Assembly (NCBI GenBank): GCA_021029095.1
Contig: JAJOHG010000115.1
Coordinates: 1 to 64,000, forward strand
Length of the DNA: 64,000 nucleotides
Direction: 5' to 3'
Source: Phellopilus nigrolimitatus
Taxonomy: Eukaryota > Basidiomycota > Agaricomycetes > Hymenochaetales > Hymenochaetaceae
Shown here: piece after piece, positions 16,056 to 53,131 of the stretch
Numbering within the stretch: position 1 is the first letter of the stretch
Layout: each line of letters opens with the position of its first letter
Translations under genes and position numbers: made by a program
Notes under the pieces: model-generated
Seen by the model: only the letters and a program-made list of their open reading frames with translations
What the model was told of the DNA's origin: nothing
Databases searched by the model: none

Positions 16056-16067
16056 TCGACGTCGAGG

Positions 16068-16073
16068 TATATA
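16068..16073 (+). promoter_or_regulatory. TATA box of the 16305 gene
   Basis: TATATA followed by GGG, 230 bp upstream of the ATG at 16305. The distance leaves room for a long leader or a leader intron. Confidence 0.45.
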
Positions 16074-19857: not shown

Positions 19858-20018
19858 CATCAGGAAAAACCTACCCTGTCAAATCCCTTCAGATCCCTTC
19901 AAATCACTTCAATTTCTTCAAATCCTTCAAATATTTGACGAAATTGAAGGGATTTGAAGAGATTTGACGGAATCTGAAAGGATTTGACGGGATTTGACAG
20001 GGTAGGTTTTTCCTGATG
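19858..20018. mobile_element. fold-back (MITE-like) element
   Basis: A 161-bp hairpin-forming element. Its ends are a perfect inverted repeat of 30 bp beginning CATCAGGAAAAACCTACCC. The interior is built from reiterated TTCAAATCC/GTCAAATCC words on the left and their complements on the right, meeting at AAATAT. Almost the whole element is therefore self-complementary. GAG occurs on both flanks and could be a 3-bp target duplication, but the exact edge is ambiguous. There is no coding capacity, so any mobility would depend on a transposase elsewhere. Confidence 0.75.
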
Positions 20019-20933: not shown

Positions 20934-22577
20934 AACAGCAGAAATAGTTTAGGGGCAGTCGGATTGGACCCCCATGACCACGATATCGCTATTTCTCCGT
21001 CTTCCCACCTCCCGTCGTGCACTCCCACCCCAGGGCCATACAAGTACCTGCGCCCATCCTGACTGCAAGGCCTCACATCCAGGACCGTCTTGCGCCTTCA
21101 AGGCGCTCTCCGTGTGCGGCTCAACACTGATGAGCGCATGGTCGCGTACACTGTGGTTTTGCGGAGTTTGACAAACGATGCGTGCGTTGTCGTTGGGATG
21201 AAAGGATCTTGGGATAAAAGGATCCTGCTGTTGGGCGGGTCTATGGTGCAGACACGCATTTCTTGGAACAGCTGGCTTTCTTTCTCTTTCTTTTTCTTTT
21301 TACTTCGTGGAATCCATCGACTCACACCGTCCCGACATCCACCCCGTGCCGACGTGTACGGACCCCTACAAAGTGTCCACAGCTATACTTGACCTTTCCT
21401 GAGTATTTGCGGGGACGACTTTTCCGAAAATCGCAGAACTCTTGGCCGGGGTGGTTACAAGGGGTGTAGTCTTGGAGAATCGGAATTATATTGGCGCGGT
21501 GGCTTGCGCTGCACTTTGACTTCGCATAAGTTGTTGCTCGTAGATGTTTATGTTATGTAGTATTTTTTTAATGAACGAATTGATCGGGGTTCATGGAATC
21601 ATTGGTGCCGTATGTGAGCTCGAGAACGGTGTATGTCGCAATCGCATACTCTCCTATGGTACTGTAAGCTCGTTTCACAGTAGAACAGTTCACATCCGAG
21701 AGCCCGATGTATTAATTCGATGAACTCTTCATATTACATGTAATAAGATACATAAAACGGACAACGAGTAATCTACAGTTCCCGCGCCCCGAAGGACCGG
21801 TCATTCGACCTCGTGCGGTAGAAGGGATTATGCAAGATTCGACTGCCAAAGCCCGCATTATCTGCAGCAGCACGGCTGGACAGCCGAGTCTCGGTACCAC
21901 GCACCGCGCGAGGACGATGGCTGGTGTTCGAGGGTGATGGCGGGCGCGAAAGAAAGCAGAAAAAGCGCACCATTGCGTTGCAACACAATCCAGCAAACAC
22001 GCGAGGCGCATAGTAGCTCGCAAACCTCTCATATCAAACAACAGTTCGGCGAGGCCCGGATTGTGCCGCAAGACGCGCGAGATTAAGCTCGGCGAACAGG
22101 ATATCTGAACGGCGGCACTGAAGCCGTCAAAAAATTTGGGATGCTCGTATCGTGGAATCGCGATAGCGCGCAGTGCTTTTACCGCCGACTACTGACGCCC
22201 GATACCCCCGTGCATATGTAATTCTCCTGACGCGCAAGATCGAAAAAAGAAATGAAAAAATTGTAGATGCGGAAGAAGGCTGGCACGGGTACTGCGGTAG
22301 GCGGACCCTGGAAGCGCCAGGAGGAATGTATAAAAAAAAGACCGTCAGCACAAAAATCATGTCGTAAGAGAAACTGACCGGGCTTAGAATCGCATAGGCA
22401 GGGAAAGCGGATGGAATCAAGGCTCTTCGAGCGTCGCAAATCGAGTGGAGGATGTGCATCATGCGTGAGGTGTGATGCCAGGACTATATATAACAGATGA
22501 GTTGGCGATGTGCGGAATGAGAAAGACAGGAGTCGAGAAGGCGCTCTATTTCTGACTGTTGGTCCATCATCGTTCAA
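20934..22577 (+). repeat. inverted repeat arm 1, about 1.6 kb non-coding segment
   Basis: This segment is the reverse complement of 29220-30736, with clear similarity along the whole length. Shared landmarks include CCTGAGTATTTGCGGG, TTGTTGCTCGTAGATG followed by TTTATGTTATGTAGT, TATTACATGTAAT next to ACATAAAACGGACAACGAGTA, and, read on the minus strand, a TATATAGTCCTGGCATCACA word. A C/T-only tract at about 21278-21302 is an insertion relative to the other copy. The short frames inside are not conserved between copies, so the unit appears non-coding. Confidence 0.78.
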
Positions 22578-29219: not shown

Positions 29220-30736
29220 ACGAAGATGGACCGATAGTCAGATATAGAGCGCCTTCTTAGCTCCTATCTTTCTCATTTCGCACATCGCCGGCTCATCTGC
29301 TATATAGTCCTGGCATCACACCCCATGCATGATGCTCATCCTCCACTCGACCGCGCGACACTCGAGGAGCCTTGATTCCATCCGCTTTCCCTGCTTTTGC
29401 AATTCTAAGCCCGGTTAATTTCTCTTACGACACGGCCTTTTGACTGACGGGCTTTGTCTTATACATTCTTCCTGGCGCTTCCAGTGTCCGCCTACCGTAT
29501 TGCACATCTCTCGTCTTGCAGTGCCGTGATTGCACGGTACGAGCATCCCAAACCTTTTGACGGCTTTCTACATCTAAGTGCCATATCATTTCTGTCGCTA
29601 GACCAGGTGGGAACCACTTTCTTTTATTTGGTCAGTCCCGCCGTTCAGATATTCTCTTCATCGAGGCTTGCCTCCAGTCTCGCGCGTCTTGTGGCACAAA
29701 CCGAGACTCGCCGAATCTTGTTCGATATGTGGGGATTGCGAGTTGCTATGCCCTCGCGTGTTCGCTAGATCGCGTTGCGATGCAATGGTGTGCTGTATCA
29801 TGTTCTCTGCTTTCCTTCGCGCTCGCCATAATCCTCGAACTCCAACCGTCGTCCTCGCGCGTTGCGTGATACCTAGAGTCGGCTATCCAGCTGTGCCGTT
29901 GCAAATAATGAGGGTTTCTGCAGTCGACTCTTTATGCGTAGTGCGTACTCTGCGCGAGGTTGATTGACTGATCTTGTGGGGTTCAGGAACCGTGGACTAC
30001 TCGTTGTCCGTTTTATGTATTTTATTACATGTAATATGAGAAATTCGCTGAATGAATACACTCCAATGCACCGGGCTCTCGTTCGTCAGAACAGTTGAAA
30101 CGAGCTTAAAATGCTATAGGAGACTATGCGATTGCGACATGCATCGTTCTCGAACTCACACACGGCATCAATGATTTCATAAACTCCGTTCTACTTGTTT
30201 ATATAAGAAACACTACATAACATAAACATCTACGAGCAACAATTAACGCGAAGTCAAAGGGCCGGCGCAAACGACCGTCAATATAATTCCGATACATCCC
30301 TTATAACCACCCCGGCTATGAGATTTTAAGCTTCGAACGAAAGCCGCCCCCGCAAATACTCAGGAATGGTCAAGTATAGCTATGGACACTTTGTCGGCCC
30401 GCACACGCTAGCACGGGGTGGGTGTCGGGACGGTATGAGTCGGAGGAGCAGGACATGCGTGTGTGCGTCATAGACCCACCCAACAGCAAGATCTTTCGAT
30501 CCCAGCGACAACGCCCTCGCTTGTCAAACTCCGCAGAACTGCTCGACCTTGCACAACAAGTGCCGCATACAGAGAGCACCTTGAGAAAACGTAAGACGGA
30601 CCTGATTGCAAGGACTTTAATTCGCTGGAGGGATGGGTGCAGCGACTTGTACGGCTGCGAGGTGGTATGGGGGAGAAATCGCGCGATCGGGGTCATGTGA
30701 GTCAGCTGACCGCCCCTAAACTGCTTCTGCTGTTTG
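29220..30736 (-). repeat. inverted repeat arm 2, about 1.5 kb non-coding segment
   Basis: Reverse-complement partner of 20934-22577. Similarity begins near AAGATGGACC at the inner end and fades past CAGCAGAAGCAGTTTAGGGG at the outer end. Both arms carry TATATAGTCCTGGCATCACA oriented toward the outside of the bracketed unit. No frame is preserved between copies. Confidence 0.78.
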
Positions 30737-35941: not shown

Positions 35942-37714
35942 CTAAGAGCGAGCGATCTTTGCAGAATTACGAGTGGACTTGGACGAGTGAATGGTAGACG
36001 AAGTGCGCTTCGAGATATTGACTGACGCCCTTCTCGTAGGCTCAGAACGCAGAATTGACGGCGCGTTCTCCTGCTCCGACCGCGAGGATGTCCGGACGTG
36101 TCTTCGCGTATTCATGCTGGCTCGAACAGGAAGTGAAATAGTTGGAGTCGCAGAAATGTTCATCACCGAAGCGAGATTAAGAGTGTCCAGCGGCTTTCTT
36201 GATAAGTCCGAGACGGGAGTAGAGGCGAAATTCGAAAAGACCCTCGGTGTGTGTGGCACAAGATTCGAACGAAGAGAAGCTGATGGACGAGGGGCTAGGC
36301 TTGGAGGCTGACGTGCGATAATGCGCTTAGGCACCGAGATCGCCAGAGAGGCACATACCGGCGAAGAGTCGTCCTTGGGCTTGCTGCCTGGCTCATCCAT
36401 GGATGAGCCCTGCGAGTGCCTGCGAGGACGAAGCAGAATGACAGTCGGAGCTGCTGTGGATATGGCTACGCTTTTTTTGGGAAGCACCGCTGAAGATGTA
36501 GCCAGCGTTTTCCCCTTCAAAATCGACCTCGGTGTGGGTGCGGACCTGTGCGCAGGGAGGCCGTGAATCGGCTTGTGCCTGAGAGAAAGCGGCGCCAAGG
36601 ATGGCGCCAGCGTCGTGCTCTTCAAACCTGATTCCGGGTCCATGGCAGAAGACCTAATCGACGCGCTGCCTTCCTCGACACGTGCGGAGGAAAGCCCAAT
36701 AGGTTCCTCGAGTGTGGTAGTACTATAAAGACCAGCTACGAGCTCCATTAAGGAAAGTAAGTCCGTATCGACGTTGATGCAGTTGAGTGCGCCCTCCGTT
36801 TCGTCACCGGTGTTAGGAAGCAGGTGTTCTTGAGATGGACTGCGCGTGCTTCTGAGTGGCTCCGAAAACGGCAACGTACTCTGGGCGGGCCGAGAGCCAG
36901 AGTCAGGCACACTTGTCCCGCCAGATATGGAATCAAGATGCTTAATATTCCATTCGCCATCCACGATCTCAGCGCTCATAGAACGATCCAGTTCCTCCAT
37001 AAGGCGGACGTCGTTCCAACAGGCCTCCAAAACCTTGTTCTCGCTCGAAGTCTCGCCAAACGCGTCCGGCCACGCGTCCAGGGCGCCATTGAACGCGCCA
37101 GCCTTCTCCCGTGTGAACGTAGCGACTGCACTCATAACGTCAGCCTCCCAGTCGTCTGTATCGAGTGTGTCAGAAACGTCAGAGAGGGGCTCGTTGCCAA
37201 CCGAAAAGCTGTCGCGAAGTCTTGCTAGGATGTCCGCGGTCGCTTGGTCGTCCTCGCTCTGCGTCGTCGTGTCCGCATCCTCAGTCTCGGTGGCACGCTT
37301 GGAGTCCGAAAATGCGATTCCCGCGTCTTCATCTTTGTTGAATACACAAAGCTGTTGCTGCCCCGACTGATCCGTCTCAAAAGGGAAAGGAGGAAGCGGA
37401 AGGGCGTGCCGGGATGGGCTGACAGAAGAAAGAGCTGAAGTCGTCGTTGGGGTGCCATGTGTCGCCGGGGTGTTCGGGGAGCTGGGTGTGCGCGGGGATC
37501 GGAAGCCGAGTCCAAAATCGACGGTCGGTGTGGAGCTCTTAGAAGTTGTCGAGCGAGAGAGCTCGGGGGACTTGGACGCGAGCGCTTCGCAGAGACGGAG
37601 AGGCTTGAGTCCTTTGTGAGTCGGAGACGCTTTCTGGCGCCGAGGGACAAACGAATTGTACGCTTCCGTGCTGCGTTCAGCAAGTGTCATCAAGAATGAA
37701 TGAGCGGCGGACAT
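35942..37714 (-). CDS. protein A1, disordered Ser/Pro-rich, paralogue of A2
   Basis: Single-exon frame of 590 residues. It starts MSAAHSFLMTLAERSTEAYN, followed by a basic KASPTHKGLKPLRLCEALASK segment, the best conserved part relative to A2. Then come Ser/Thr/Pro-rich linkers, acidic patches (DTTTQSEDDQATADI, DVSDTLDTDDWEADV), NKVLEACWNDVRLM, LSLMELVAGLYSTTT and a basic Ser-rich C-terminus with PAHRSAPTPRSILK and EQENAPSILRS. No known domain is recognised. Start is placed at 37714, not at the in-frame ATG at 37828, because a TATA box lies at 37815-37822 and the first 38 codons look like leader. Compared with A2 it lacks about 100 internal residues and both introns, yet the frame is kept. SP/TP-rich sequence suggests a phosphorylated scaffold, which is inference. 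Confidence 0.78.
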   Translation of the reverse strand: MSAAHSFLMTLAERSTEAYNSFVPRRQKASPTHKGLKPLRLCEALASKSPELSRSTTSKSSTPTVDFGLGFRSPRTPSSPNTPATHGTPTTTSALSSVSPSRHALPLPPFPFETDQSGQQQLCVFNKDEDAGIAFSDSKRATETEDADTTTQSEDDQATADILARLRDSFSVGNEPLSDVSDTLDTDDWEADVMSAVATFTREKAGAFNGALDAWPDAFGETSSENKVLEACWNDVRLMEELDRSMSAEIVDGEWNIKHLDSISGGTSVPDSGSRPAQSTLPFSEPLRSTRSPSQEHLLPNTGDETEGALNCINVDTDLLSLMELVAGLYSTTTLEEPIGLSSARVEEGSASIRSSAMDPESGLKSTTLAPSLAPLSLRHKPIHGLPAHRSAPTPRSILKGKTLATSSAVLPKKSVAISTAAPTVILLRPRRHSQGSSMDEPGSKPKDDSSPVCASLAISVPKRIIARQPPSLAPRPSASLRSNLVPHTPRVFSNFASTPVSDLSRKPLDTLNLASVMNISATPTISLPVRASMNTRRHVRTSSRSEQENAPSILRSEPTRRASVNISKRTSSTIHSSKSTRNSAKIARS

Positions 37715-37814
37715 CGCGAGGAGCGACGAGAAGGGGAGGGGAGAAACAGAGGAAGAGAGATGGTGGAGGAGGAAAGAAGACCACTGAATGCGACGCAGGG
37801 TACACGGTGAATCC

Positions 37815-37822
37815 TTTATATC
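37815..37822 (-). promoter_or_regulatory. TATA box of gene A1
   Basis: Minus-strand GATATAAA in the context GACAGATATAAAGGATTCACC-like sequence, about 105 bp before the ATG. The same context precedes gene A2 (50617-50624), showing that the promoter was copied with the gene. Confidence 0.65.
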
Positions 37823-38949
37823 TGTCAAGAACGATTGACATTACTGTTCAATCTGAGTCGAAATACCAGGCTTACAAGCAGTCTGATATGAAATGATAGC
37901 CACCGTGTGCCAGCAGGTGCTTCCATCGTCATCCCTCGTTCCATCCCGCAAACCGTGTCGAACATGTCGAATCGACAACAGCCTAGCGCGCCTTCCTAGT
38001 GCTTGGTATAGAAAATGTTCAGATGATGAAGCCGGCATCTTGCAGTGCAATTCTAGAGGCCATCGAATCAAGCAGCAATTTCGGAAATATGTGAGGACTG
38101 AGCAATGAGAATAACAGCAGAAGATGGTCAACTCCCCATCATTGGCTGCTACTCGCCGACGACATGCACAAGATACCGTACATCCACATTGGCCGCAATG
38201 TCGATCTCAGCGAGCACAGTGTACGATCGCTAGACCTGACTGACGCGAAGAGGCGTGGCAGAGTGCGCCTGCACACCTGCAATAAAGTGATGGCTCCGAC
38301 GACAGATGTCCAGACACCAAAGTGCGTTTTGTCATAGAGCACGCTGAGAGGCTGAGAGCGCAGACACGTAAGAAGAAATTCATGGAATGACATGTCGATG
38401 GTCGTCGTTGGTCGCGAAGGAATTCGTCGACAGCGCTGGATTTCTAATGTGTACAAGGATGGTGTACAAAGTGTACAACCGCAAAGTTTACTTCATCACC
38501 TAATTGGACCGAGTAACAAAGTCTGCAAAGGCTTTGTGTTACGTATTCGACTAACAACCGTGCAAGTGCAAGTCTTACGCTAAAAGTTTCTTTCACGAGC
38601 AGACCGCTGAAACATGACTGGAGCTGAAATCGCTACCCTATCATTCGCTCTCTGGCTTCACTTCTGCTCGAGCTTCGTCTTCCCGGGTCCGTAGATGAAC
38701 GCGAAAATATCACTTCCATTTCCTATAATCATCGCTCCCCTAACTTACACAGGCAGATAATCGTACAGATATTACATTCCGTCGTTTCTCCTCGACGTTT
38801 TTTTTTTGTCCAAAAAGCCCGGACAAACGCTTCGTATGTACGTTTCCGAGTCGTCTGGACCGAGAGACCGCGACGCTCGCTGATGCAAAGCAGATAGATT
38901 CAGCAAAACATTTATTGGTCTCCAGAAGAAGGAAGACATACCTTCGCGA
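37823..38949. other. A1-B1 spacer
   Basis: No gene. GTGTACAA occurs three times at 38449-38479. The part next to B1 (about 38500-38800) matches the reverse complement of the B2-A2 spacer, for example AGCGATTTCAGCTCCAG-like sequence and TCGTCTTCCCGGGTCC. A T9 run lies at about 38800. Confidence 0.5.
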
Positions 38950-40512
38950 TCAATGAGCGAAGCGACTTCGCTTTTGATTCAAGCCCCATTTTTGCACCCA
39001 GGATACATCTACCCCGACCTCCGACACCACGACCCCGCCTCCCTTTCCATGACGCGCAGACGAGCTCGACAGCACGGTCAACGAGAAGTTCAGCCGCGGC
39101 AGCTCTGACGGGTGAGGAGCAGACTGGATATGGGGTGTTTTGTAGAACAGGTCGGACGCCTCCTCTTCCTCCATGCACTTTGCTGTTCGTGCTTTTGTCT
39201 GCGTTTGAGCGAGGACTGCCCGGGCCGGGCCTGAGCCTCCGAGCTCTTTTCTCATCGACGCTTTAACCCCTTTCGAGGCCTGTGGGACGGGCGCAGGCTT
39301 GCGCACTGCCAGTGCGCATGCGCTTTTGTTGGCTTTGAGGAGCGGCAATTTAGACGGTGCCTTTCCTCGTTTCGAGGCAGGCGGGACCGGTGCGAGCTCG
39401 TAGATTGCGTACGAGCTGTTGCAGGAGTCGAGAAGAGCCGGCTCGGGCATGACTGCAGCATCCCGTCTTCCGACGCTGACGTTCTCCTTCTCCTCCTTTG
39501 CGCGATGACACGCGGCGCGCAGAATTGCGACGTCTTTCAGAAGCCGACGCGAGGGCTCAATCAGCGTTTTGGGTGGTTTGCCGAGCTGCAACAGCCTCGG
39601 GCGGCGCCCTCCTCCCCCGGTCCCCGTCTGTCCGGCTTCTGGCTCGCTCAGCAAAGAGGCGTCTGGTTGTGAGCCCGACGCGACTGCGACCACTGTGGAT
39701 GGGCCGCTCTCGACCTCGAGGAGCGGCGGCTCGGGTCGGACTGCAGCATCCTGCCGCCCGACGCTCGCCTTCCCTTTCGACTCCGCCCCCCGGCTAAGCA
39801 ACGCACGCAGTCTCTCAATGCGCGCAAAGTACTCTGGCGAGGGTCCGACGATGTGCTCCGGCGATTCGTCGTAGTACATCAGTCCCGGACGGCGCTCCCT
39901 CCCCCGGACTGTCTCAGGCGATAAAGAAGAGGTGGTTGGTTTTGCGCTCGACGGGACCGCTCCGTCGGCGGCTTCGATTTGGTGGACGAGTTGGTCGAGA
40001 AGTCTCAGCTGCTTCCGTTGCTTCTCGTGCGCGGGATCATGCAGAATCGCAGATCCCGCCACATGTTGGTTTGGCTGCGGAGCCACCGTGTCCTGATGCG
40101 TCTGGATCGTCATGGACGAGCTTGTTGGGATCGGTGGAAGAGGACGAACAGATATCCCTCCCATAGCCACAAGCATCGTCGACTGCATGTTCGACTCCGG
40201 CTCGCTTGCTAGTGGTATGGCTGAATTCGCGCGCGAGCTGAGAGCCTCCTCCTGTCTCTTGAGCTCTGCGAACATGTCCTCTACGTTCGCATAATCGCGC
40301 GCGAGCTGTTCGAACCGCTAAATGTAAGCATCCCAAGCATCCCTCATCCATGCAACCAACTCAGAACTCACCTTTTCAAACTTCTCCTTCGCCTGTATAT
40401 GTGCCCCAAGACGCATCGGGCGCGGATGGAAGAGCGGAGTCTCCTCTGCGGACGGATCGAGGAGCGGATTCTCCTTCGCGGACTGGTAGCGTAATCCTTT
40501 AGGAATATACAT
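38950..40512 (-). CDS. protein B1, uncharacterised, paralogue of B2
   Basis: Two exons (40372-40512 and 38950-40317) with a 54-nt intron give 502 residues. The N-terminus carries FHPRPMRLGAHIQAKEKFEK, then RFEQLARDYANVEDMFAEL, a short coiled coil. A HDPAHEKQRKQLRLLDQLV helix and RERRPGLMYYDESPEHIVG with SPEYFARIERLRALLSRG follow. SVGRQDAAVRPEPPLLE and SVGRRDAAVMPEPALLD are an internal ~20-residue repeat separated by PSRRLLKDVAILRAACHRA. The C-terminus is basic and ends RSRFAH. No named domain is recognised. It is about 85% identical to B2 and indels keep the frame, which argues that both are translated. B1 also has a short N-terminal duplication (SAKENPLLDP / SAEETPLFHP) absent from B2. Transcribed divergently from C1. 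Confidence 0.85.
40119..40437. repeat. gene-conversion tract, B1 copy
   Basis: These 319 bp equal the reverse complement of 47901-48219 except for one base (GCAGAG here versus GCCGAG in the coding sense). The tract covers the end of exon 1, the complete 54-nt intron and the start of exon 2. Beyond each edge differences appear at once. Confidence 0.85.
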
Positions 40513-41493
40513 GGCGGGGAGAGGAAGAGCTGTGGAGGAACACGACGTGGCTGAGACGGGACTGTGTTGTGTTCTCTATTTTAAACTCCGCCCATTGTGC
40601 CCTGCAGCCACAATCACCGTGTGAAAGTCAACATCCACTCGATATCGACGCCTAGCTGAAGCTCTTCCAGTCGGATTAGTACGTTTCTCACTAATATAGC
40701 TGACGGTATCATAGGCATTCTACGTATTTTTCGTTGAAATATATTTTGTTTTGTGGTCTTATGAAGGGCAGATTTCCTGTATCGCATAATAACTCGAATC
40801 AATAGGTACAAGCAAGCCAATAGCTCAGTCGCCGCTACCACTGGTTATTCGATCAACGCAGATGCTGGTTCAGTGTATAAAACATTGCCAGGAACTCACG
40901 AAAACAGGAGATGGCCATGGATAGGAGAGGGTTGTAAACCTGCGCAGAAACACATATGCTCTCATTTGTGCGGTCCCGGCCTTTTAACCCCGCATGAATT
41001 TCTTTCGTGCAAAAAGCGCTTATCACGATAAATACGCAGCAGAACTCAAGAGACGCATTACGAACAGGATGGTCACACGCCACGGACGCGTTATTAGCAC
41101 TTGCTGTGGATTGTTGTGGCTGAACGGAACCTTCCCGGCCCGACGGCTTCAACGTCGTGTCACGTGCATCACCGACATTGAAGCTTTTCGTCAAATTCGA
41201 ACTTACAAGACGAGGTTCGGACCTCAGGCTGTCTCTCAGTAACGGGTGTCAATTTGATTTCAGGTAAAAAACTTTGCTAAATGATATATTTCCGGGGTAG
41301 TAACCGGCTTGACTTCTAAATAAGTGACTAACCCGGGCCGCGGACCTCGGCAATACTAAATAGGCGCCGAAGTACAACGCGAACGCGTATGTCGCGTAAA
41401 ACGTAAAGTCTCACGTTCTCATCCTTCGCTTTTTGTCGACATGTCCGTGCTCCGCATTGCCCGTCTTCTATTTCTTTTTCGCGTCCGGCCACC
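40513..41493. other. divergent promoter region B1/C1
   Basis: Shared upstream space of minus-strand B1 and plus-strand C1. The ~60 bp nearest B1, including AACTCCGCCCATTGTGCCCT, has a mirror copy upstream of B2 (47765-47790). No gene recognised. Confidence 0.5.
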
Positions 41494-42463
41494 ATGGACA
41501 CCAGTTCGATCTCTCCTGTCCTGCCCCGGACGCCCCTCCATGTCCGCAGACACGCCGGCACGCACAAACTCGAACGCCATTGGTGGTACATATGGATCCC
41601 GCTCTTCTCCGCGATGGTATGGTTCGGGTCCCTGCTCGCGCTGCTCATCACCTGGATCCGCTCCGGCCGCCCGCACTACGTTTCGATGCTTGAAACCCAG
41701 CACATAGCGTACATCTCGGATGTGGCGGCGGACTTCCTGAAGCCGCTTTTCATCACCGGGAACGTGATCACAGCGATCGGATTGTCCCTCAGCCTCTCGA
41801 TCGAGAGGTGGGCGCGGCACGACGGAAGGTGTGTCCCATTTTGCTCGTATATATCTCCAATCATGGTCGGCGGAAACTGAGATATGGTACAGACTCCTTC
41901 CGAATATGCGCAAACGCGAGAAGGTCACGTCGGCGCTCGCCATAATATGGTCGTTCGTCGGCGGCGCGGGCCTCATCCTCCTCTCCGTTTTCGACACGAA
42001 ACGGTATCCACTCCTTCACGACGTCTTCCTTGGCGTCTTCGTCGCTGGCACCGCCATCAGCGCTTTTTTCACCATCGTTGAGGTGTGTCGCCCTTTTCCC
42101 TGCATTTTTGTCTTTTTGGAGAGTGAAACGAAATAATGTATACTGAGATTCTTCGGTCTTAAGTTTCGCTGGCTCAACAAGACTTTCGGCGCCCGCTACC
42201 GCGCGCTGCGCGCCGGGTACTTATTTAAGGCAGTCTTCGCCGTCATCCTCATTTCGCTTGCGATCCCTTTCGGCGTGCTCATCGACAGCTCGCACCGCGA
42301 CCCCGGCGCGATCATCGAGTGGACGATCGCGCTCCTCTACACGTTCTATCTCCTCTCGTTCTGGTGGGACCTCCGGCAGAGCGGCCACTTCGAAAAGGAC
42401 GAGCTAAGCCCCGAGCGGCTGGCGGAGGTGGGGATGCGGGAATGGGGCGTGCCGACGATGTGA
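41494..42463 (+). CDS. Frag1/DRAM/Sfk1-family membrane protein C1
   Basis: Three exons (41494-41828, 41893-42082, 42164-42463), 274 residues. It resembles fungal Sfk1-type proteins, plasma-membrane proteins linked to phosphoinositide and sterol organisation and related to animal DRAM and FRAG1. After a short cytosolic tail come HWWYIWIPLFSAMVWFG, LLALLITWI, the family signature RPHYVSML-HIAYISDVAADFLKP, FITGNVITAIGLSLSLSIERW, VTSALAIIWSFVGGAGLILL, VFLGVFVAGTAISAFFTIVE, YLFKAVFAVILISLAIPFG and WTIALLYTFYLLSFWWDL. That gives six predicted membrane spans, ending in a short acidic tail with MREWGVPTM. Intron positions are identical in C2. The start agrees with the family N-terminus. Identity to C2 is roughly 75%. 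Confidence 0.9.
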
Positions 42464-43821
42464 GACGTGGTATATCGATGGGAAAAGATAACGTACAAAA
42501 GAAGTACAAAACAAATTCACAATCTTTTGAATAAAGTATCCAGCACGAATAATACGATGGCATTTCTGCTTACAGGAGACGGGGGCTCGAACTCCGAGCA
42601 GTGCGGAGAGTGGAGGGGAACGAACGAAAGTCCAGATGAGTCAGGTTCTAAACTCCACATACACAATCAGACAGAATGCTCGTTGTTCACAAGATCGTGA
42701 TGGTCCGCTGAGAACTTATGGCGAGAGGGCCGGAAAGAAGCCTGAACAGTCACACGAGGGCTGCTAATTTTTGATTTCAGTAAGACGTTCGAGAGGCGTT
42801 CGTATTGATTACTTTTGCGCTTACAAATACGCGTAGGTCATTTTCCGAAAATCGAAACCTACTAAAGCATAGGTGCAGGGTTGACGTTTGAACGTTTTCA
42901 GGACCTTTTGTCGCCTAGGCAACAATGATTAGTGTCTGGTGGTTGAGATGAAGGTACGGAAAAGTGCTGAAGACTTGGGAAGTGCAGACACAAAGCACTG
43001 AAAGGGGGCGGCCACGAGTAAATCGCTGACTTTCTGCTTTTTCTGCTATATAGCGTGCTGGCGTCTAAAGTATCGTGTCCACCGAGCGAGGTATATTTAG
43101 ATTATTCAGCAGCATAGGTTGCTAACTATAGACGCAGAATGACTATGGCTCATCCTTCCTTGGTGATGCTGGTTTGCGAACTTCTATGAATATCTGCGAT
43201 TACAAATACACAAACACGTATGGGAAACTCGGTATAATGGTCTTTATTACTGACATGCTATCTCCACTGTCGCGTTTAAGTGCATCGGTCCAGCTCTCCT
43301 CGTCGGCTCAGCCCGGCCTGGGAGAAGGCTGCTCGTCATCAAGGTTATAACAATGCTCGGAGCCAAATGTAGGAGCGCGCGCGCTGGTGCTCGTTTGCGA
43401 ACGCGGCACATTCCCTTCGCTTCGAGTTTCAAGCTTTTAGCTGGGAAGACAGGCTGGGTTCCAAACAGTCACGTCCATACAATCCTACGTGCGACCCTCT
43501 GGCTTTACGCGGCCGAGGGCTGCCTATCCGTTCAGGTGCGGCCCTAGAACGTTGTCACATCTATGAACGTAAGAGCTGCTCAGGTCTAAGCTTCAGAGCT
43601 AATCGCGGGTATGGGTGCGTAAGAGCATACCGGAACTATGCACGGGCACGACTGGTTCTGGCGCATTGGCTTGATCCGATCAAGTGAACAACTTCTTGGA
43701 TTGGCGCCTAGATGGTGCCTGCACGAATTTTGTTTTCCGTTCAATAGTCAAAGCGAGAAACCCACAAAAGACGTACTGTGGAAGCATGCTTGCAAGTGCA
43801 CCGTGTCGTACGTAACTTCGC
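42464..43821. other. unique centre of the palindrome, left of gene D
   Basis: No gene recognised. It is not obviously mirrored on the right of gene D, so it belongs to the single-copy loop between the arms. Confidence 0.45.
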
Positions 43822-44756
43822 TTATCCCCTCAAGACCTTCAGCAATTTCTCTCTTCTTGACTTTAGTTGCATCATCTCGCTCCTAGAGTACCGTTCGCGT
43901 CTTGAACTCAAGAGCTTCGCCAGTATCTCTAAATGATGAATTGCGTCTACTCTCCGGAGGCTCTCCGAAACGATGGGGGACCGCAGGACTAGTAAATAAA
44001 GCGCGTCTAGCGCCTGCAGCTGCGTCTCAGAGACAGGCGAGCTGAATTAACAAATAGTAAGCTTTACGCAATCATTTCTGACGAAAATAGGACCACATAC
44101 TGAGTGTACTTTAGCAGCCTCGTGCAGTGCCGACGGATCCGCAGCTCCTGTTCGACGATCCATTTCCTTCTGCGCCACGTCGCAGGACCTGCAGCGTTCA
44201 GCTCGACGGCCATCACGATATCCTCCACCTTCTGCTTCGTCGCGCGGGGGCCAAATCCGAAGCGCTCCGCGCAGACGCTCATCAGCGCCTCCAGGCGCCG
44301 TCCGAAGAAGCTGTACACGTTCCCGAGGTTCCGCCCCGCGCCCACGTTGTTCGACCGCGTCGCGGTCGACGTCGTTGCGATGCCGGTGTAGTCGCTCAGA
44401 TACGAGTACGGCGTCAAGTTCGAATGCGGCGTCAAGTTCGAGTGTGGCGTCAAGTTCGAGTGCGGCGTCAAGTTCGAGTACGGGTGGTACGGGCGGCCGG
44501 TCCAGATGGACGCGCTGTTGCCGTTGCTGTGACTCCGGTCTTCGCGCGCGTACACTGCGTCGTCGAAGACCACGCTGGTGGGTCTCCGGCGGACCTGTTG
44601 GTGGAGACGCGCGGCTACGGGGACGGCGGCGACATGTTGGATTGGAAATACCCCGTAGGGACTCGGGAAGCGAGGGGGCGCATAAGCGGGGTACGGCTCT
44701 GGCAGAACGCGACGTGGGTAGAATTGCGGGGTATAGTAGCCGTAGTCGTTCTGCAT
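43822..44756 (-). CDS. gene D, uncharacterised protein on the palindrome axis
   Basis: Two exons (44101-44756 and 43822-44041) with a 59-nt intron give 291 residues. The N-terminal half is Tyr/Pro-rich (MQNDYGYYTPQFYPRR, PYPAYAPPRFPSPYG) and carries a run of four NLTPHS-type hexapeptides encoded by an 18-bp minisatellite. The C-terminal half is helical and basic: VYSFFGRRLEALMSVCAERF, KQKVEDIVMAVELNAAGP, WRRRKWIVEQELRIRRHC and, after the intron, SETQLQALDALYLLVLRSP, RRVDAIHHLEILAKLL and a Lys/Arg-rich end. Joining at the GTATGT donor (44100) keeps the frame and continues the helical pattern. An AATAAATA word on the minus strand about 55 bp upstream may serve as TATA. No family recognised. It is the only gene of the locus without a mirror copy. 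Confidence 0.72.
44407..44478 (+). repeat. 18-bp minisatellite in gene D
   Basis: Four tandem units of the form TGCGGCGTCAAGTTCGAG with one or two substitutions each, at 44407, 44425, 44443 and 44461. The period is a multiple of three, so copy-number change lengthens or shortens the protein without a frameshift. Confidence 0.85.
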
Positions 44757-46083
44757 CGCTGCTCGGTACTAGCGAGTTACAATGTGCTCTGCGCGGATTC
44801 CAGCCGACTATTTATTAAGACGGGAGAGGCGGTGTGTTCGTATCTGTTACGTAGCACCGCCTTGACGACTTTTTGGTCGGCGTGCATTGGACCTATATGG
44901 ATTCAATGGATGCTGTACATGCCCTTACTCATTATACCGACGATTAGCGTTGACTCTTTTTCAGTCAACGGTGTATCCTATTAGATGCTCATAGCACAGC
45001 CCGCTAAGCGCCGTCTCAAACCCCGTTCCCCGGGCATTTCTATTAGAGACTATTTCCGCGCGTCTTCTTCTGTCTAGATCCTCAGCTTTTTAGGACTCAT
45101 GTTCCTTCTGAGCACTTACTGTCCCTGGATGATTAGATGAAGGTCCTGAGTGCATCATGAAAACAGATATGGCGCTCAGAAGTCCAGTTAGACGCCCCTT
45201 GTATTAGGGCAGCAAGTTTCCTCACCGTAATCTAAAAATGCAAAAACTCTCACGCGCGTTCTAACGGAATCGAAGAGTAACCCCATCGCGTTTGTACAAT
45301 GTACCTGTGATTGAGAGGTGCCCATCACGTCTGCTTTGCCTGCTCTGGCCTGGTCCTCGCGCTTCATTTTCTCAGATCTTTCTGGCCTTCTAAACATCGT
45401 GATCAACAAACAAGTGTCACGTTAGTCATGCGAGTGCTACGGTCTCGAACAAACAGTCCCTTGACAAAAGTGTTTATTCCGCCATAAATGTGCATGTAAT
45501 GTTGGAATTACTATGTCGATTATCATCCGCTTCCCTCCGTAAATCTCAGGCTTACTTTCTACATAATAAGTAATGTACAAAAAAAAAAACTGAATAAGGC
45601 ATGCCAAGGGCTGAGCTGAAAATAAGATCGGGAATATAAGAATACATGCACAAAATGGTGCTCTTTTCGGCACTCTTCGGCTCATATAAATTCAAGGAAT
45701 TGTATTTCGGATCTGACCATTTTCAGCCCTTTATATTCGTAAAGTATACATGTTCTCAGTGTGAAGTCATGGGATTTTAAGGACTCCGGGTGAAATGTAT
45801 CGACTCGGTTTGAATTTATGAGAGGTTTGAGACAGGCGAAAGGAGTACAAGTGCATAAAAGTAGTAAATGTATATTGACGGAGTAATTTCAAGATCACTT
45901 AAATGTAAATTTATCATGGAATAAAGATTTTTCAGGGGATTGAACATTCAGACAGCATCCAGGAACGACAGAGCTATGAGCCATGATTTTCAGTTCGTGT
46001 TGTTTTCGTGAGGTATGTAGTACACGCAGTCGTACTATTGGTACAGGATAGCTCATTGATAAAAATCCGTCTATTATATATCT
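44757..46083. other. unique centre of the palindrome, right of gene D
   Basis: Upstream region of gene D followed by AT-rich sequence. An A-only run occurs at about 45578-45590. No gene recognised; frames at 45188-45409 and 45437-45685 lack support. Confidence 0.45.
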
Positions 46084-47016
46084 TCACATCGTCGGTCCGC
46101 CCCGCTCCCTCATCCCCGTGCTCTCCAGGTGCTCGGGGCCCAGCTCGCCCTTCGAGAGGCCGCCGCTCTGGCGGAGGTCCCACCAGAATGAGAGGAGGTA
46201 GAAAGTGTAGAGGAACGCGATCGTCCACTCGATAATCGCGCCGGAGTCCGGGTCGGAGCTGTCGAGGAGCGCGCCGAAGGCGATGGCGAGCGCGATGAGG
46301 ATCACGGCGAAGACCGTCTTGAAGATGTACCCACCGCGCAGCGCGCGATAGCGCGAGCCGTAAGTCTTATCGAGCCAGCGAAACTGGGAAGCGGGAAGGG
46401 GAAAAAATCTCAGTATACAGGATAATTTGGTTTTTTCGATATGCAGAAGAAAGGCCGGCGTACCTCGATGATGGTGAAGATGGCGCTGAGCGCGGTGCCG
46501 ACGACGAAGATGAGAAGGAAGACGCGGTGCAGGCGTGGATGGCGCTTCGTGTCGAAGATGGAGAGGAGGATGAGCCCGACGCCGCCGATGAATGACCATA
46601 TTATCGCAAGCGTCGACATGACCTTCTCGCGCCTGCGCATATTCGGAAGGAGTCTACACCGTATTTCAGAGTCAGCTTACGATCATAATGGAATATTTCC
46701 ACAGACGAAATCGAGCTCACCTTCCGTCGTGCCTTGCCCACCGCTCGATCGAGAGGCTCAGAAAAAAGCCGACGGCCGTAATCGCGCAACCGGTGACGAA
46801 GAGCGGCTTCAGGAAGTCCGCGGCGACGTCGGAGATGTACGCGATGCTCTGGTCGTCGGCCATGGACACGTAGTGTGGCCGTCCGGAGCGGAGCCAGGTG
46901 ATGAGCAGCGCGAGCACAGTGCCGAACCACATTGTCGCGGCGGCGAGCGGGACCCAGACGTACCACCAGTGGTGCCGGTGTCGGTGGGGGGCGCGCGAGG
47001 AGGGGTTAGCGTTCAT
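46084..47016 (-). CDS. Frag1/DRAM/Sfk1-family membrane protein C2
   Basis: Three exons on the minus strand (46721-47016, 46464-46653, 46084-46383), 261 residues. It is the paralogue of C1 with the same intron sites: HHWWYVWVPLAAATMWFG, RPHYVSM, IAYISDVAADFLKPLFVTG, LSLSIERWARHDGR, LAIIWSFIGGVGLILL, FLLIFVVGTALSAIFTIIE, WTIAFLYTFYLLSFWWDL. It again gives six predicted spans and the ending GMRERGGPTM. The N-terminal tail is 13 residues shorter than in C1 and unlike it, and the C-terminal tail differs, whereas the membrane core is highly similar. Open frame and family motifs intact. Divergent from B2; both C genes point toward gene D. Confidence 0.9.
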
Positions 47017-47855
47017 GGTGGGCGGTAATGAGAGGAAGAGGGAGAGGGTGAGATTGGAATGTGGAGGCTGGCGCTGCGCATGTCGAGAGCAGGAAAGATG
47101 TAGTGGAGACGTGAGACTGAACGTCGCGTTGCAGTTCGGCCTGAGTCCTCACTGACGTCACTGCTTATAAAGATGATTTACTGTAGATCACGGCCCGAGT
47201 TCGTAATGTTATTTCAATAATTAAGCCGTTCGGTCACGTGTTGAGCCTACGGTCAGCCACCCCACCGAGTAATTCAACCTCTTCAATTTGCGTACGAGAT
47301 TACGAACGATATTCGCGCCCTGAATGGAATTGACATTCAACTTAGTACCTTTAAGTTGAAGCTCGCGAGATTAGGCAGCCTTGAAGACTCTCGGACAACC
47401 TTGCACTCCTCTTTGTGCCGGCAACGACCACTTCTCCCTTACATAAACCTGGCCCTTGAAGAATTGAACACGCTTCTTAGTCCCAATCGCACGTCTCGTC
47501 GTAAGGCCCGAGCAAAGTCTCCTGAGAGCTCGCAATCCCGGCGAGATGGCGACGGAAAGGACAACACTGCCGAAGTCATGTCTTCCCTTGAGAATGGCAA
47601 CAGGAGATATGATGCATTTCAAATGGGACGTACATAGAGTGTTCGAAGTACCATTTATTAGATTACTTAGAGACGCACTCCTCTCTACTGTTAAGAAAGG
47701 GTTCAGCTTCAGCTAGGCGTCGATATCGAGTGGATGTTGACTTTCACACGGTGATGTGGCTGCAGGGCACAATGGGCGGAGTTTGAAGTGGGAAACACAA
47801 CATAGTTCTCGTCTCAGCCACGTCGCGTTCCTCCACAACCCTCCTTCTCTCCAGC
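47017..47855. other. divergent promoter region C2/B2
   Basis: Mirror counterpart of the B1/C1 interval, partly diverged. The GGGCACAATGGGCGGAGTTT word near 47765-47785 is the mirror of the sequence upstream of B1. A plus-strand frame at 47356-47637 is unsupported. Confidence 0.5.
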
Positions 47856-49403
47856 ATGCATCCGCCTCCAGGACTGCACTTCCCGACCGCAGAGGAAGCC
47901 CCGCTCTTCCATCCGCGCCCGATGCGTCTTGGGGCACATATACAGGCGAAGGAGAAGTTTGAAAAGGTGAGTTCTGAGTTGGTTGCATGGATGAGGGATG
48001 CTTGGGATGCTTACATTTAGCGGTTCGAACAGCTCGCGCGCGATTATGCGAACGTAGAGGACATGTTCGCCGAGCTCAAGAGACAGGAGGAGGCTCTCAG
48101 CTCGCGCGCGAATTCAGCCATACCACTAGCAAGCGAGCCGGAGTCGAACATGCAGTCGACGATGCTTGTGGCTATGGGAGGGATATCTGTTCGTCCTCTT
48201 CCACCGATCCCAACAAGCTTGGCCATAGCGATCCAGGCGCATCAGCACACGGTGGCTCTGCAGCCGAATCAACATGTGGCGGGATCTGCGATTCTGTATG
48301 ATCCCGCGCACGAGAAGCAACGGAAGCAGCTGAGACTTCTCGACCAACTCGTCCACCAAATCGAAGCAGCCGACGGAGCGGTCCCGTCGAGCGCAAAACC
48401 AAGCGCCTCTTCCCCATCGCCCGAGCCAGGCGTCGAGCTTGTGACGGTCCGGGGGAGGGAGCGCCGTCCGGGGCTGATGTACTACGACGAATCTCCGGAG
48501 CACATCGTCGGACCCTCACCAGAATACTTTGCGCGCATCGAGAGACTGCGTGCGTTGCTTAGCCTGGAGGCGGAGTCGAAAGGGAAGGCGAGCACCGGGG
48601 AGAAAGATACTGCAGTCCTGCCCGAGTCGCCGCTCCTCGAGGTCCAGAGGAGCTCGTCCACAGCGGACGCGGCCGCGCCGGGCTCACAACCAGGCGCCTC
48701 TTTGCTGGACAGCACAGAAGCCGGACAGACGGAGACCGTGGGAGGAGGGCGCCGCCCGAGGCTGTTGCACTTCGGCAAACCACCAAAAATGCCGATTGAG
48801 CCCTCGCGTCGGCTTCTGAAAGACGTCGCAATTCTGCGCGCCGCGTGTCATCGCGCAAAGGAGGAGAAGGAGAACGTCAGCGTCGGAAGACGGGATGCTG
48901 CAGTCAAGCCCGAGTCGGCTCTTCTCGACTCCTGCAACAGCTCGTGCGCAATCCTCGAGCTTGCGCCGGTCCCGCCTTCCTCGAAACGCGGAAAGGCACC
49001 GTCAAAATTGCCGCTCCTCAAAGCCAACAAAAGCGCGTGCGCACTGGCAGCACGCAAGCCTGCGCCGGTGCAGTCGGCCTCGAAAGGGGTTAAAGCGTGG
49101 ATGAGAAAAAAGCTCGCAGGCTCAGGCCCGACCCGGACTGTCCTCGCTCAAACGCAGACCAAAGCACGAACAGCGAAGTGCACGGAGGAGGAAACGTCCA
49201 ACCAGTCCTACAGAATACCCCATTTCCAAACTGCTCCTCACCCGTCAGAGCTGCCGCGGCAGAACTTCTCGTTGGCCGTCGTGTCGAGCTCGTCGGCGCG
49301 TCATGGAAAGGGAGGCGGGGTCGTGGTGTCGGAAGTCGGGGTAGATGTATCCTGGGTGCAGGAGTGGGGTTTGAATCAAAAGCAAAGTCGCTTCGCTCAT
49401 TGA
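47856..49403 (+). CDS. protein B2, uncharacterised, paralogue of B1
   Basis: Two exons (47856-47966 and 48021-49403) around a 54-nt intron give 497 residues. It starts MHPPPGLHFPTAEEAPLFH and then follows B1 throughout: RFEQLARDYANVEDMFAEL, EKQRKQLRLLDQLVHQIEA, RERRPGLMYYDESPEHIVG, the helical PSRRLLKDVAILRAACHRA and the tandem VGRRDAAVKPESALLD-type repeat. It has a small insertion (SPEPGVELV) relative to B1, a whole number of codons. The intron is identical base for base to that of B1. Charged, with predicted coiled-coil segments and many SP sites, it lacks a signal peptide or membrane span, so a cytoplasmic or nuclear scaffold is possible but unproven. Confidence 0.85.
47901..48219. repeat. 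gene-conversion tract, B2 copy
   Basis: Partner of 40119-40437 with one mismatch in 319 bp. At the right edge AACAAGCT is followed by TGGCC here and CGTCC in the B1 sense; at the left edge GAAGCC here faces GACT in B1. Confidence 0.85.
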
Positions 49404-50733
49404 TCGCGAAGGTATATTTTCCTTCTTCTGGAGGCCAATAAGTGTTTTGCTGAGTATATCTGCTTTGCATCAGCGAGCGTCGCGGTCTCTCGTCCAGACG
49501 TCTCGGAAACGTGTACGTACGAAGCGTTGATCTGGGCTTTCTGGAGGAAGAAAAAAACGTCGAGGAGAAACGACGGAATGTAGTATCTGTACGATTATTT
49601 GCCTGTGTAAGTTAGGGGGAGCGATATTTGGCGCTTTGTATCGGAAATGGAAGTGATCTTTTCGCGTTCATCTGAGGACCCGGGAAGACGAAGCTCGAGC
49701 TGAAGTGAAGTCAGAGAGCGAAGGATAGGGTAGCGATTTCAGCTCCAGCCCTGTTCTCAGCGGCCTGCTCATGAAAGTTGCTTTTGTCGTAAGACTTTTG
49801 TACGGTTGTAACACAAAGCCTTTGTATATTTTTCTTACTTCGCCCCAATTAGGCAACGAAGTAAACTTCGCTAGTTGCACACTTTGTACACATCAACAAC
49901 AGCTTTTGTACCTTTGTACACGTTACATTTCTTGCACAACCCACAACCATCGACGTGCCGTTAGATGTCTTCATTCCTATTGCGTCCCCTGCGTGCGAGG
50001 CTATAGCACGTTATCTGGACTCTGGACTACCGTTTTCGCGATCTGTCGGTACGTCGGCTCAGTTCTTCATGAGACGTTCAACGCCGACGACGTATAGCTC
50101 AGCGTGCAGGAGCCTTCGGTCGGCTCGTTTCGATTTCTCCTGCTTGCATCTACAAAGCAGGCCTATGTTTCTCTGTAGTGGACAAGATAAATCTCGCGGT
50201 CAATGTGGATGCGTGATTTCGCGTCAGCTCTGCAGAAATGTAACAGGCAATATGGTGGTGAGTTATCTAGCATATCGGCCATCTTCTGCAGCTCAATAAC
50301 GACATTGTCCGTCACTTAGATCGGACGGTCGTTATCTTCCTGGGACCGCTGCTTGAAAATTTGACCGTCAGCGACTGGTTTCAAGCTGTACGCTCCGCCA
50401 TCTAGACATGATGGACAGACTGCGATGGCGCTCTTACTTACAGTCTCTCGACGGGTTCAACACAGTTTGCTGAGTGCAATCGGGAATGATGGTGGAATGT
50501 GTGCTAGCCCACGACGCTTACGATTTCATACGAGACTGCTTGCCGTAATCCTCGTAAGTCTTGCTGCAATTGATATTTCGTTCGAGACTGAGCACCAATG
50601 TCTCTCGTCATCGACAGATATAAAAGATTCACCGCGCTATCCGTCCCATTCAGTGGTCTTCTTTCCTCCCCCACCATCTCCCCTCCCCTCCTCGCTTCCC
50701 TTCCCTTCCCTCTCCCCTCCCGCCGGTCCTCCA
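49404..50733. other. B2-A2 spacer
   Basis: No gene. The first ~430 bp mirror the A1-B1 spacer, including GTAGCGATTTCAGCTCCAG near 49732 and TTTGTACGGTTGTAACACAAAG near 49797. TTTGTACAC occurs at 49883-49891 and 49913-49921. The last part is a C/T-rich leader of gene A2. Confidence 0.5.
50617..50624 (+). promoter_or_regulatory. TATA box of gene A2
   Basis: GATATAAA in the context CGACAGATATAAAAG, about 115 bp before the ATG. Context conserved with gene A1. Confidence 0.65.
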
Positions 50734-53131
50734 ATGGCCGCCGCTCATTCATTTTTCTCAACGTTCGTTCAACGCAGCGCGGAAGCGTATAATTCGATTA
50801 TCCCGCAACGTCAGAAAGCACCAGTGACGCCCAAGGGACTCAAATCTCTTCGTCTCTGCGAAGCTCTGGCGTCAAGGCCTCTCGAACTCCCTCGCGAGAC
50901 AATTCGCAAGAACTCCTCGCCAGCCGTTATCTTCGGGCCTAGTTCTCCGTACGCTTCCAGCTTCCCGAGCACCTCGACCTCGCCTAACCTCCCGACGACA
51001 ATCTCGGTCTTCTCCTCTGCTGGCTCTTCGCAGTTCTCCCTTCCGCTTCCTCCTTCTCCTATTGAACCTGGTCTCTCTGAGCAGCAACAGTTCTGCGCGT
51101 TTGACGAGGAGGAAGACGCGAACGCGTCTTGGGACTTCAAGTGTGCCGCTGGATATGGGAAAGCGAACGGGATGTTGAACGACGAGGACGATCAAATGCC
51201 CGAGGTCGCGCAAGACACCCTCACGGGACTTCGCGATAGTCTCTTGGTCGTCAGCGGGGCCTTTTCGGACGTTTCCGACCCACTCGAACCGGATAGTGGT
51301 GAGGCTGACATCATGGACTCAGTTTCAGTGGAGGAGGCTGGCACCTTCAGGTGTACATCCGGTGCATTGCCGGTCGCGCTTAGCAAGGTCGAGAGCGAGC
51401 ACAAGGTCTTGGAAGCGTGGTGGAATGACGCCTACCTTACGGGGGCCCAGTATCATCCTATGAGCGCGGAGATCTTCGACAACGAGCTGAATATCACAGG
51501 CCCTTTGGCGCGCGAGATAACCGAGGCAGTCTCTGTCTCACGGCCTGCTCATGTTGCTTTAGCCCCAAAGTCACGCAGAAGTTCTCGTAGGACGTCTCAA
51601 GAGCATATGCTCTCTGTCGGGCTAAAGAAGAACTCCAAGCGCGATCTGGCGGGCCACCGCGCTGGCCGCATCTTTACTGGGGTTATCAGCCGAGAGAGCG
51701 ATGTAAGCTTCTTGTCTGACTCCAAATCTCTCGCAATGATTGACTTTTCGTTCAGGATGAGTTGCGCGAACACAACACTGACCTTTTCAACCCCGATGAC
51801 GCCATCGGCTCTACATCGTCTTCGACGACCCCGTCGCTCATTGAAGACACGTGCTCGTCTGTTTGCTCAGAAGCTCCGATTATCAAGTCCAGCATCTCTG
51901 AATCTTCGATAGCTGCGAACCTAGGTGCCCTTGTCCTTCTCGACGAATACAGCGACGGAGACGTCAGTAACGCATTTGACATTGCTCGAGCGCTGCGAGA
52001 AGACGGCGATATTTTAGAGAATATCCCTTGGTACGTTGTCCGTCTAATGGTCCCTCCTCTTTCCTGACGTGTTCTGTAAGCTCCGATGAAAGGAGTTTTA
52101 TCTCAATCAGATCTGACATTGCGGTCTCCGGCCATGAGACCGAGGACACGCTCGACTACATCGAAGTCGAGGCGGAACTGTATGCCTTGATGCAGTTCGT
52201 AGCTTGTCTTTATAGTACTACTCCCGTCGCACCCAGCGGACTCTGTTCCATGCACTCCAACGGGGACAAGACTTCAATTAACCACGCATTGCCCTCCGAA
52301 AGTGGTCTAGTTGCCTTTTCGCTTTCTACGCCTCTGATGCTGGACAAATGCGTGTCAGATTCAGGCCTTGCTTCAGAACTTGCAGACATGAAGACTCCAC
52401 GCAGCATCTCCCACCGCAGGACGACATCGGCTCCGACTTCTCTGGCACCGCTTTCTTTCAAGAAAAAGCTTGTTCGCAATATTCCTGCACACAGATCAAT
52501 GCCAGCGCCGATGTCCATTTTGAAAAAGAAAATGCTTTCGGCAGCTTCTTTGGCGCTCCCTATCAAGAAGGTAGCCGTATCGACTACACAGTCGACTATC
52601 ATCCCTCCCCGCACTCGAGAGCGCTCGCGGAAATCATCTGCCAGTGCGTCAGTGAACAAGCCTAAGTACGATTCTTCACGCTCGAACATTCGCCTGGTCA
52701 CCTCCCCGATACGTGTCTCTCGGGCGACCTCAACACCTAAGCGTGCTACCTTGCGCCGTCCTTCAAGTCTTGCTACCCGTCCTTATGGGCGTTCAGATTC
52801 TACCCTGTACGCGCCGAGGGTCTCTTCTCCTCTTGCCTCCTCATGCGTTCTGGAGTCTCCGAGGAAGCCGCTAGTCGCTATCAATTTGGCGTCAATGACG
52901 AACGTGTCTGCGACGCCATCCGTTTCTCTTCCTGGTCAAGTCGCCAATGATACACTAAGGCACGCCCGGGCTTCCTCGCGGTTGGAGCAGGAGAATGCGC
53001 CATCAACTCTGCGATCTTCGAGATGGGCGTCTGTCAACGTTTCGAAGTCCGCTTCTACCGTCAATTCGTCCACGATCACGCTCGCTTCCTCTGCCAAGGT
53101 CGGCTATTCTCGGGATTCTATAACTCTTTAG
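50734..53131 (+). CDS. protein A2, disordered Ser/Pro-rich, paralogue of A1
   Basis: Three exons (50734-51702, 51756-52030, 52081-53131) give 764 residues. The start MAAAHSFFSTFVQRSAEAYN and KGLKSLRLCEALAS match A1. Further shared blocks are HKVLEAWWNDAYL, RRTSQEHML, LYALMQFVACLYSTT, SLAPLSFKKKLVRNIPAHRS, NLASMTNVSATPS and RLEQENAPSTLRSS. A segment unique to A2 covers the end of exon 1, all of exon 2 (TPSLIEDTCSSVCSEAPIIK, ANLGALVLLDEYSDGDV) and the start of exon 3. Another block, KCVSDSGLASELADMKTPRS, is also missing from A1. Both introns are GT-AG and frame-preserving. Codons upstream of 50734 are open but lie in the leader after the TATA box. No domain recognised; high Ser/Thr content with many SP sites. 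A2 looks like the fuller, probably ancestral form. Confidence 0.78.

Follow-up and report, generated by a model that had tools for sequence, protein, structure and literature searches.

The best-known gene palindromes lie on sex chromosomes and have whole arms that are near-identical, and those of the mammalian X and Y combine inverted arms with arm-to-arm gene conversion (PMC3723533, PMC8981503), as the locus described here appears to do. In Caenorhabditis, both members of inverted paralog pairs have long been retained, partly alike and diverged over the rest (Zhao et al. 2007, PMC1803023); up to four genes stand in palindromic order, at the HSP16 locus, and gene conversion was proposed (PMC1803023). 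Here, we analyzed a stretch of 64,000 nucleotides from the basidiomycete Phellopilus nigrolimitatus (GenBank assembly GCA_021029095.1, contig JAJOHG010000115.1; hereafter the window), in which three genes, A, B and C, occur twice in mirrored order around a single gene D. Comparison of the sequences makes it likely that the locus is an inverted duplication of three genes around D in which only B carries mosaic tracts, most likely the product of gene conversion from arm to arm.

The mirror and its second copy

Self-BLAST and translated comparison confirmed an arrangement proposed in a first-pass annotation of the window, namely three genes present twice in mirrored order and strand around D, and the inverted diagonal expected in a self-comparison was found in the regions named there, in broken form. 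The window covers bases 1-64000 of C19, a contig of 86,717 bp in an assembly of 56.4 Mb and 635 contigs. The strands along the mirror run A-, B-, C+, D-, C-, B+, A+, and its features are as follows (aa, amino acids).

35942-37714, minus strand: A1, a single-exon, low-complexity open frame of 590 aa
38462-40663: left B block, 88% identical to the right arm, the sole part of the arm showing apparent exchange
38950-40512, minus strand: B1 gene, exon 1 at about 40372-40512 and exon 2 at 38950-40317
40318-40371, minus strand: B1 intron, 54 bp, GTGAGT..TTTAG
39563-39762: likely conversion tract in B1, from four-copy site patterns
41494-42463, plus strand: C1, 274 aa, exons 41494-41828, 41893-42082 and 42164-42463; fast-evolving
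44064-44755, minus strand: D, 230 aa, on the axis, the only one of the seven genes with no mirror copy
46084-47016, minus strand: C2, 261 aa, exons 47016-46721, 46653-46464 and 46383-46084; slow-evolving
47705-49891: right B block, mirror of 38462-40663
47856-49403, plus strand: B2 gene, exon 1 at 47856-47966, intron at 47967-48020, exon 2 at 48021-49403; database model P0002, 497 aa
50734-53131, plus strand: A2, whose two blocks mirroring A1, 50734-51612 and 52127-53110, are separated by about 0.5 kb of additional sequence; tentative exon structure

In self-BLAST, the inverted B match (38462-40663 with 47705-49891) was 87.9% identical over 2240 columns, the C match (41577-42463 with 46084-46972) 77.2% over 902 columns, and the A match (36965-37868 with 50571-51474) 68.3% over 927 columns, with three further, shorter inverted pieces of A (64.7-74.5%) reaching 35980 and 53072. 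The translated self-comparison recovered this mirror as well. The top real score was 2815 bits compared to 31 bits for the best among 50 three-base-block shuffles, which excludes a chance origin of the match. Mirrored points sum to 88329-88368 in B, to 88546-88549 for most pieces of C (88501-88556 for a few), and to 88430-88448 in the 5' part of A. In the 3' part of A the sums shift to 88938-89067 because A2 is longer by about 0.5-0.6 kb. Every axis lies within D (44064-44755), as had been predicted; the predicted range of sums, 88338-88547, does not take in the 3' part of A.

The mirroring extends to the introns, as claimed earlier, with one 54-bp intron in both B copies and two introns in both C copies. 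The claim that parts of the spacers are mirrored too is right for the flanks nearest the genes: about 150 bp upstream of A and, for B, about 150 bp upstream and about 490 bp downstream. The remaining A-B and B-C spacers gave no BLAST match (about 40-62% identity in forced alignment), and the C1-D-C2 spacer (42464-46083) gave no inverted match in self-BLAST at an E value of 1e-3. The instability expected of long inverted repeats, raised as a puzzle in the first-pass annotation, does not apply to arms that are 64-88% alike where they can be aligned and lie 3.6 kb apart.

The complete mirror is also present on a second contig, C607, with D oriented as on C19. The collinearity of C607 with C19 spans 16.4-62.8 kb but is interrupted: identity is 94-98% in the main segments and 83-91% in three short ones, and C19 29.1-31.9 kb is without a collinear counterpart on C607. 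Since the same diverged mirror stands on two separately assembled contigs, it is unlikely to be an assembly artefact, and C607 is probably the allele from the other nuclear haplotype. If C607 instead represented a second 46-kb copy at another place in the same nucleus, the C19 sequence past 62.8 kb, which is unmatched in C607, and the additional insertions in C607 would be accounted for, but we consider this improbable on three grounds. Homeodomain matches form two pairs in the assembly, on contigs C1 and C50, which would be the case if the assembly contained both mating-type haplotypes of a dikaryon; matches to the family of D come in equal-score pairs on different contigs, which again points to two haplotypes; and the assembly, given as 56.7 Mb in a published Hymenochaetales table, compares with 28.6-41 Mb in several relatives, others being larger. 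All six duplicated frames had been described as open, which holds for A1, B1, B2, C1 and C2 on both contigs; the tentative A2 gene model is open in two stretches, from 50365 to 51912 and from 51980 to 53131.

The origin of the block was traced through C. The C1 protein matched PF10277, the Pfam family of Frag1/DRAM/Sfk1 membrane proteins, with 126.8 bits (cut-off 30.3), in agreement with the Sfk1/DRAM type assigned earlier; the assignment of C2 comes from the Pfam label listed for database model P0006. Searches found 141 relatives of C, and among the 120 listed, Fomitiporia, Phellinidium, Coniferiporia and Sanghuangporus, which are relatives within the same order, had one cluster each, judged by row names of which some were truncated or missing. 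C1 and C2 were sisters with support of 99/94 in trees built from 27 and 17 selected rows, which suggests that the duplication lies within the Phellopilus lineage, and the approximately unbiased (AU) test rejected grouping C2 with these four genera and one further row to the exclusion of C1 (p 0.016). The duplication is older than the split of the two haplotypes, as the mirror is present on C607. Given the sisterhood of C1 and C2 and the comparable silent divergence of A and C, duplication of a single inverted block, as first suggested, is the simplest origin, and these sequences indicate that the block was probably copied once.

Unequal divergence and mosaic tracts in B

The first-pass annotation drew no distinction between the three pairs, but the arms are 64-75% alike in A, 77% in C and 88% in B. 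In A, arm-to-arm synonymous divergence (dS, NG86 method) is 0.95 (291 aligned codons, 5' part); it is 0.55 in C and 0.125 in B. The YN00 value for C1-C2, 2.17, is apparently saturated, and NG86 values were used. If A, B and C were copied together, the low dS of B implies that B has been reset.

The copies were compared in a four-way alignment of two arms by two haplotypes (L1 and R1 from C19, L2 and R2 from C607; gap columns removed), in which a site is allelic when the two left copies agree and the two right copies agree, and cross when the right copy of C19 equals the left copy of C607. In the block alignment, B had 95 allelic, 29 cross and 12 within-haplotype informative sites, so that 41 of 136 were non-allelic (the arm alignment gave 41 of 129). 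A had one non-allelic site among 560, and C had none among 202. The non-allelic sites of B were clustered in runs, including 20 cross sites at 39563-39762 and five within-haplotype sites at 40186-40233. Along the cross tract, R1 and L2 match at 198 of 200 bases, and both allelic pairs are about 85% identical there (250-column window from 39541). The longest identical runs were 19 sites for R1-L2 (p 0.0002), 14 for L1-R1 (p 0.0002) and 10 for L2-R2 (p 0.0006), from 5000 permutations of the 308 polymorphic B sites with p values uncorrected for six pairs; with the 206 core sites, the values were 0.0016, 0.0004 and 0.0014. L1-R2 showed no significant run (p 0.29, or 0.34 for core sites), and the allelic pairs likewise had significant runs, as expected.

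The alleles of B are themselves divergent, with a dS of 0.10 and 0.13 compared to 0.01-0.05 for the alleles of A and C. Protein identity is 85.5% between the B1 alleles and 87.7% between the B2 alleles, and it is also 85.5% between B1 and B2 on C19; allelic differences about as large as the difference between the arms would follow from short imported patches. The allelic dN/dS (ratio of nonsynonymous to synonymous divergence, NG86) is 0.77 and 0.50 for B, 0.40 and 0.18 for A, and 0 and 0.16 for C, and since the values for B are below 1, no positive selection is shown. Taken together, these results suggest that sequence most likely moved between the arms repeatedly and, judging from the four copies, in B alone. 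Maintenance of the block as one palindrome, as had been supposed, is thus not supported, since A and C are diverging and exchange between the arms appears in B alone; the mirror likely keeps reshuffling B while its neighbours drift apart.

Copying between repeats requires similar sequence. In the mechanism that we propose, a block with A, B and C would have been copied once in inversion in the Phellopilus lineage, after which A and C would have drifted to 64-80% identity, probably below what recombination tolerates, and B would have stayed similar enough, or favoured enough, for break repair to use the opposite arm. The inverted copies would pair by fold-back or across homologs, either within one chromosome or, in meiosis, from one haplotype to the other, and non-crossover repair would copy a patch, leaving B with short imported patches and mosaic alleles. 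An accidental crossover between the inverted copies would only flip the intervening segment with no gene lost, so that the arrangement could persist. We infer that A and C have left the range of recombination and that B is still within it; chance, local breaks or selection for variety may explain the persistence of B. A more speculative idea, to which we give a small chance, is that the mirror is a diversity generator, with B kept in two inverted copies, conversion minting new alleles, and A and C free to specialise. If true, this would suit a gene for non-self recognition or spore competition.

The tracts could also have been made by an assembler that mixed B reads from different arms and nuclei, so that the cross tracts would be chimeric joins, and the two haplotypes are apparently only partly separated in the assembly. 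We regard this as quite unlikely, because C19 and C607 contain zero N bases, R1 and L2 differ at two of the 200 tract bases although a chimeric join would have drawn on one set of reads for both, all four B copies have open frames and private changes (43, 20, 36 and 63 singletons), and the 6-10% by which the copies differ over the compared coding part suffices to sort reads. There is an equally slim chance that B reached both arms after A and C did, by insertion or duplication in a separate younger event. This would explain why B is far more alike than A and C and why the likeness stops at 38462 and 40663, with dissimilar spacers beyond; however, B lies at the mirrored place and on the mirrored strand in both arms, recency alone yields neither cross nor within-haplotype tracts, and four copies plus one 162-bp fragment is not the behaviour of a mobile element. 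Finally, purifying selection stronger on B than on A and C, with no conversion, agrees with the intact frames of the four B copies but is very improbable, as allelic dN/dS shows the weakest constraint in B among the three genes, the likeness of the B copies spans the intron, 3' flank and silent sites as well as the protein, and selection at the protein level would not pair R1 with L2.

Several points weigh against a single duplication followed by conversion in B. In a search with PF04950, one gene was present once and the other twice in the assembly, which suggests that the haplotypes are only partly separated; we infer the allelic status of C607, and the comparison rests on the sequences of two haplotypes only. 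The AU test fell short of rejecting C2 with Phellinidium (p 0.069), and since A and B are without a usable outgroup, the single-block origin rests on C and gene order. In addition, 11 of 63 half-kb bins exceed 6% allelic divergence, and 6 of these 11 lie outside B, so the argument for conversion rests on the tracts and not on divergence alone.

The genes and their surroundings

Neither A nor B matched a Pfam family. With only about 8000 candidates scored in each case, the protein search with A found only its own allele, missing even A2 at 48% identity, and the search with B found only its own four copies, all in this genome; given the missed A2 and the number of candidates scored, the absence of A and B from relatives is weak evidence. 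Within the genome, A and C match only in the two mirrors. On C607, A1 stops seven codons sooner (583 compared to 590 aa; window 35942-36000). B appears to be an orphan gene at the search sensitivity used. The database model of B1, P0001, starts at 40275 and has 441 aa. Besides its four mirrored copies, B has one solitary 162-bp fragment in the genome (C412:87687-87848), 87-94% identical to the four copies, around which a wider protein match is interrupted by stops. The predicted B structure is of low confidence along most of the chain, with a mean predicted local distance difference test score (pLDDT) of 40, and has four helices longer than 20 residues; low confidence of this kind would fit a mainly disordered protein. 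No solved structure matched B below an E value of 0.25, or C1 up to an E value of 1.

The two C copies have evolved at different rates, with a branch length of 0.42 for C1 compared to 0.06 for C2; four relative-rate tests counted 32-36 unique changes in C1 and 10-13 in C2 (chi-square 8.0-14.7). Over 274 codons, the C1 alleles encode the same protein, by which C1 looks constrained at present. C1 has thus evolved fast since the duplication and now looks constrained, with C2 far less changed.

D contains an array of 18-bp repeats (44403-44483), which differs between the haplotypes: exact copies of its 11-base core number four in C19 and one in C607, and the D protein is 230 aa on C19 and 218 aa on C607. 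No Pfam model was found for D. The C-terminal domain of D is one of a family scattered over the genome, with at least 62 matches there, including D and its allele, and with a motif read by eye as GxGRxLG...LE...GPrA...LLkY; a relative similar in the N-terminus too lies at about C607:59145-59640. D also weakly resembled ribosomal protein uS3 (E value over the whole sequence 0.022 for most top matches, single domains 0.045-0.16, and 1.7e-6 for one chain holding the domain twice), which was rejected as chance, as the D-family motif differs from the part aligned.

Other identities were rejected for the mirror as a whole. It is not a mating-type locus by the markers searched, since neither PF05920 nor PF02076 matches on C19 or C607; homeodomain (PF05920) matches are on contigs C59, C24, C50 and C1, and pheromone receptor (PF02076) matches on C13, C322, C80, C38 and C533. 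The copy number (four copies and a fragment of B, A and C only in the two mirrors) is too low for a transposon with inverted ends. A flip-flop inversion switch is not indicated by the same orientation on two of two contigs, though inversion may occur rarely.

The window also holds a second, independent inverted repeat (20934-22573 and 29220-30734, 71-86% alike, axis at 25.9 kb), within whose span lies a match of the aquaporin type (MIP); MIP was the one family over cut-off in a Pfam search of 19 further open frames of the window. Its arms contain no clear gene by eye and have no further genome match, and on C607 the left arm was found and the right arm was not, so the haplotypes differ there. 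A 160-bp stretch at 19858-20018 is an inverted repeat of itself at 82% and could form a hairpin. On C607, about 10 kb (8963-18757) without a counterpart there in C19 holds a chromodomain Ty3-type retrotransposon, flanked by 509-bp direct repeats (10407-10915 and 17518-18026) that are 100% identical, which points to a recent insertion. A few kb past the collinear end, at C607:63600-128311, begins an array in which at least 19 similar units of gene size, in either orientation and mostly 74-86% alike, were counted by eye; the one unit tested is a haloacid dehalogenase (HAD)-type hydrolase.

Comparison with known systems

A literature search found no publication on this locus. It is an old multi-gene mirror with no mating-type markers on its contigs, in which exchange seems to have been lost in two pairs and kept in one, and exchange in B would increase allelic variety rather than remove it. 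With three pairs of the same likely age in two haplotypes, it offers a natural test of how far divergence shuts off recombination between copies, and a way to ask if ongoing shuffling can be restricted to a single gene.

Other fungi provide partial parallels. Aspergillus paralogs are likewise fungal duplicates that exchange sequence and carry lineage-specific changes, but the exchange was inferred between species and here it is between haplotypes, and the words "inverted" and "palindrom" are absent from the main text of that study (PMC12844118). In Podospora, exchange among the het-d and het-e copies creates allelic polymorphism comparable to that of B; those genes encode WD-repeat proteins with a role in allorecognition and reported positive selection (PMC1805685), whereas B has no known domain and a dN/dS below 1. 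In Cryptococcus, another basidiomycete, inverted copies of pheromone genes were proposed as conversion templates and likened to Y palindromes; those copies are at the mating-type locus and conversion is proposed only (PMC12510652), whereas the mirror here lies elsewhere.

Among animals, the Caenorhabditis pairs keep the repeat next to the centre (PMC1803023), whereas the C1-D-C2 centre here has no repeat and the similar part is a gene in mid-arm; the evidence for exchange also differs, being mosaicism between two haplotypes. The arms of the mammalian palindromes are more than 99% alike (PMC3723533, PMC8981503), compared to 64-88% here with most of the spacer unmatched, and they lie on a sex chromosome, whereas the present mirror has no mating-type marker on its two contigs and shows likely conversion in one gene. 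Relative to these known palindromes, the Phellopilus mirror appears to be a variant: a multi-gene type in which exchange is limited to one gene and gives rise to mosaic alleles.

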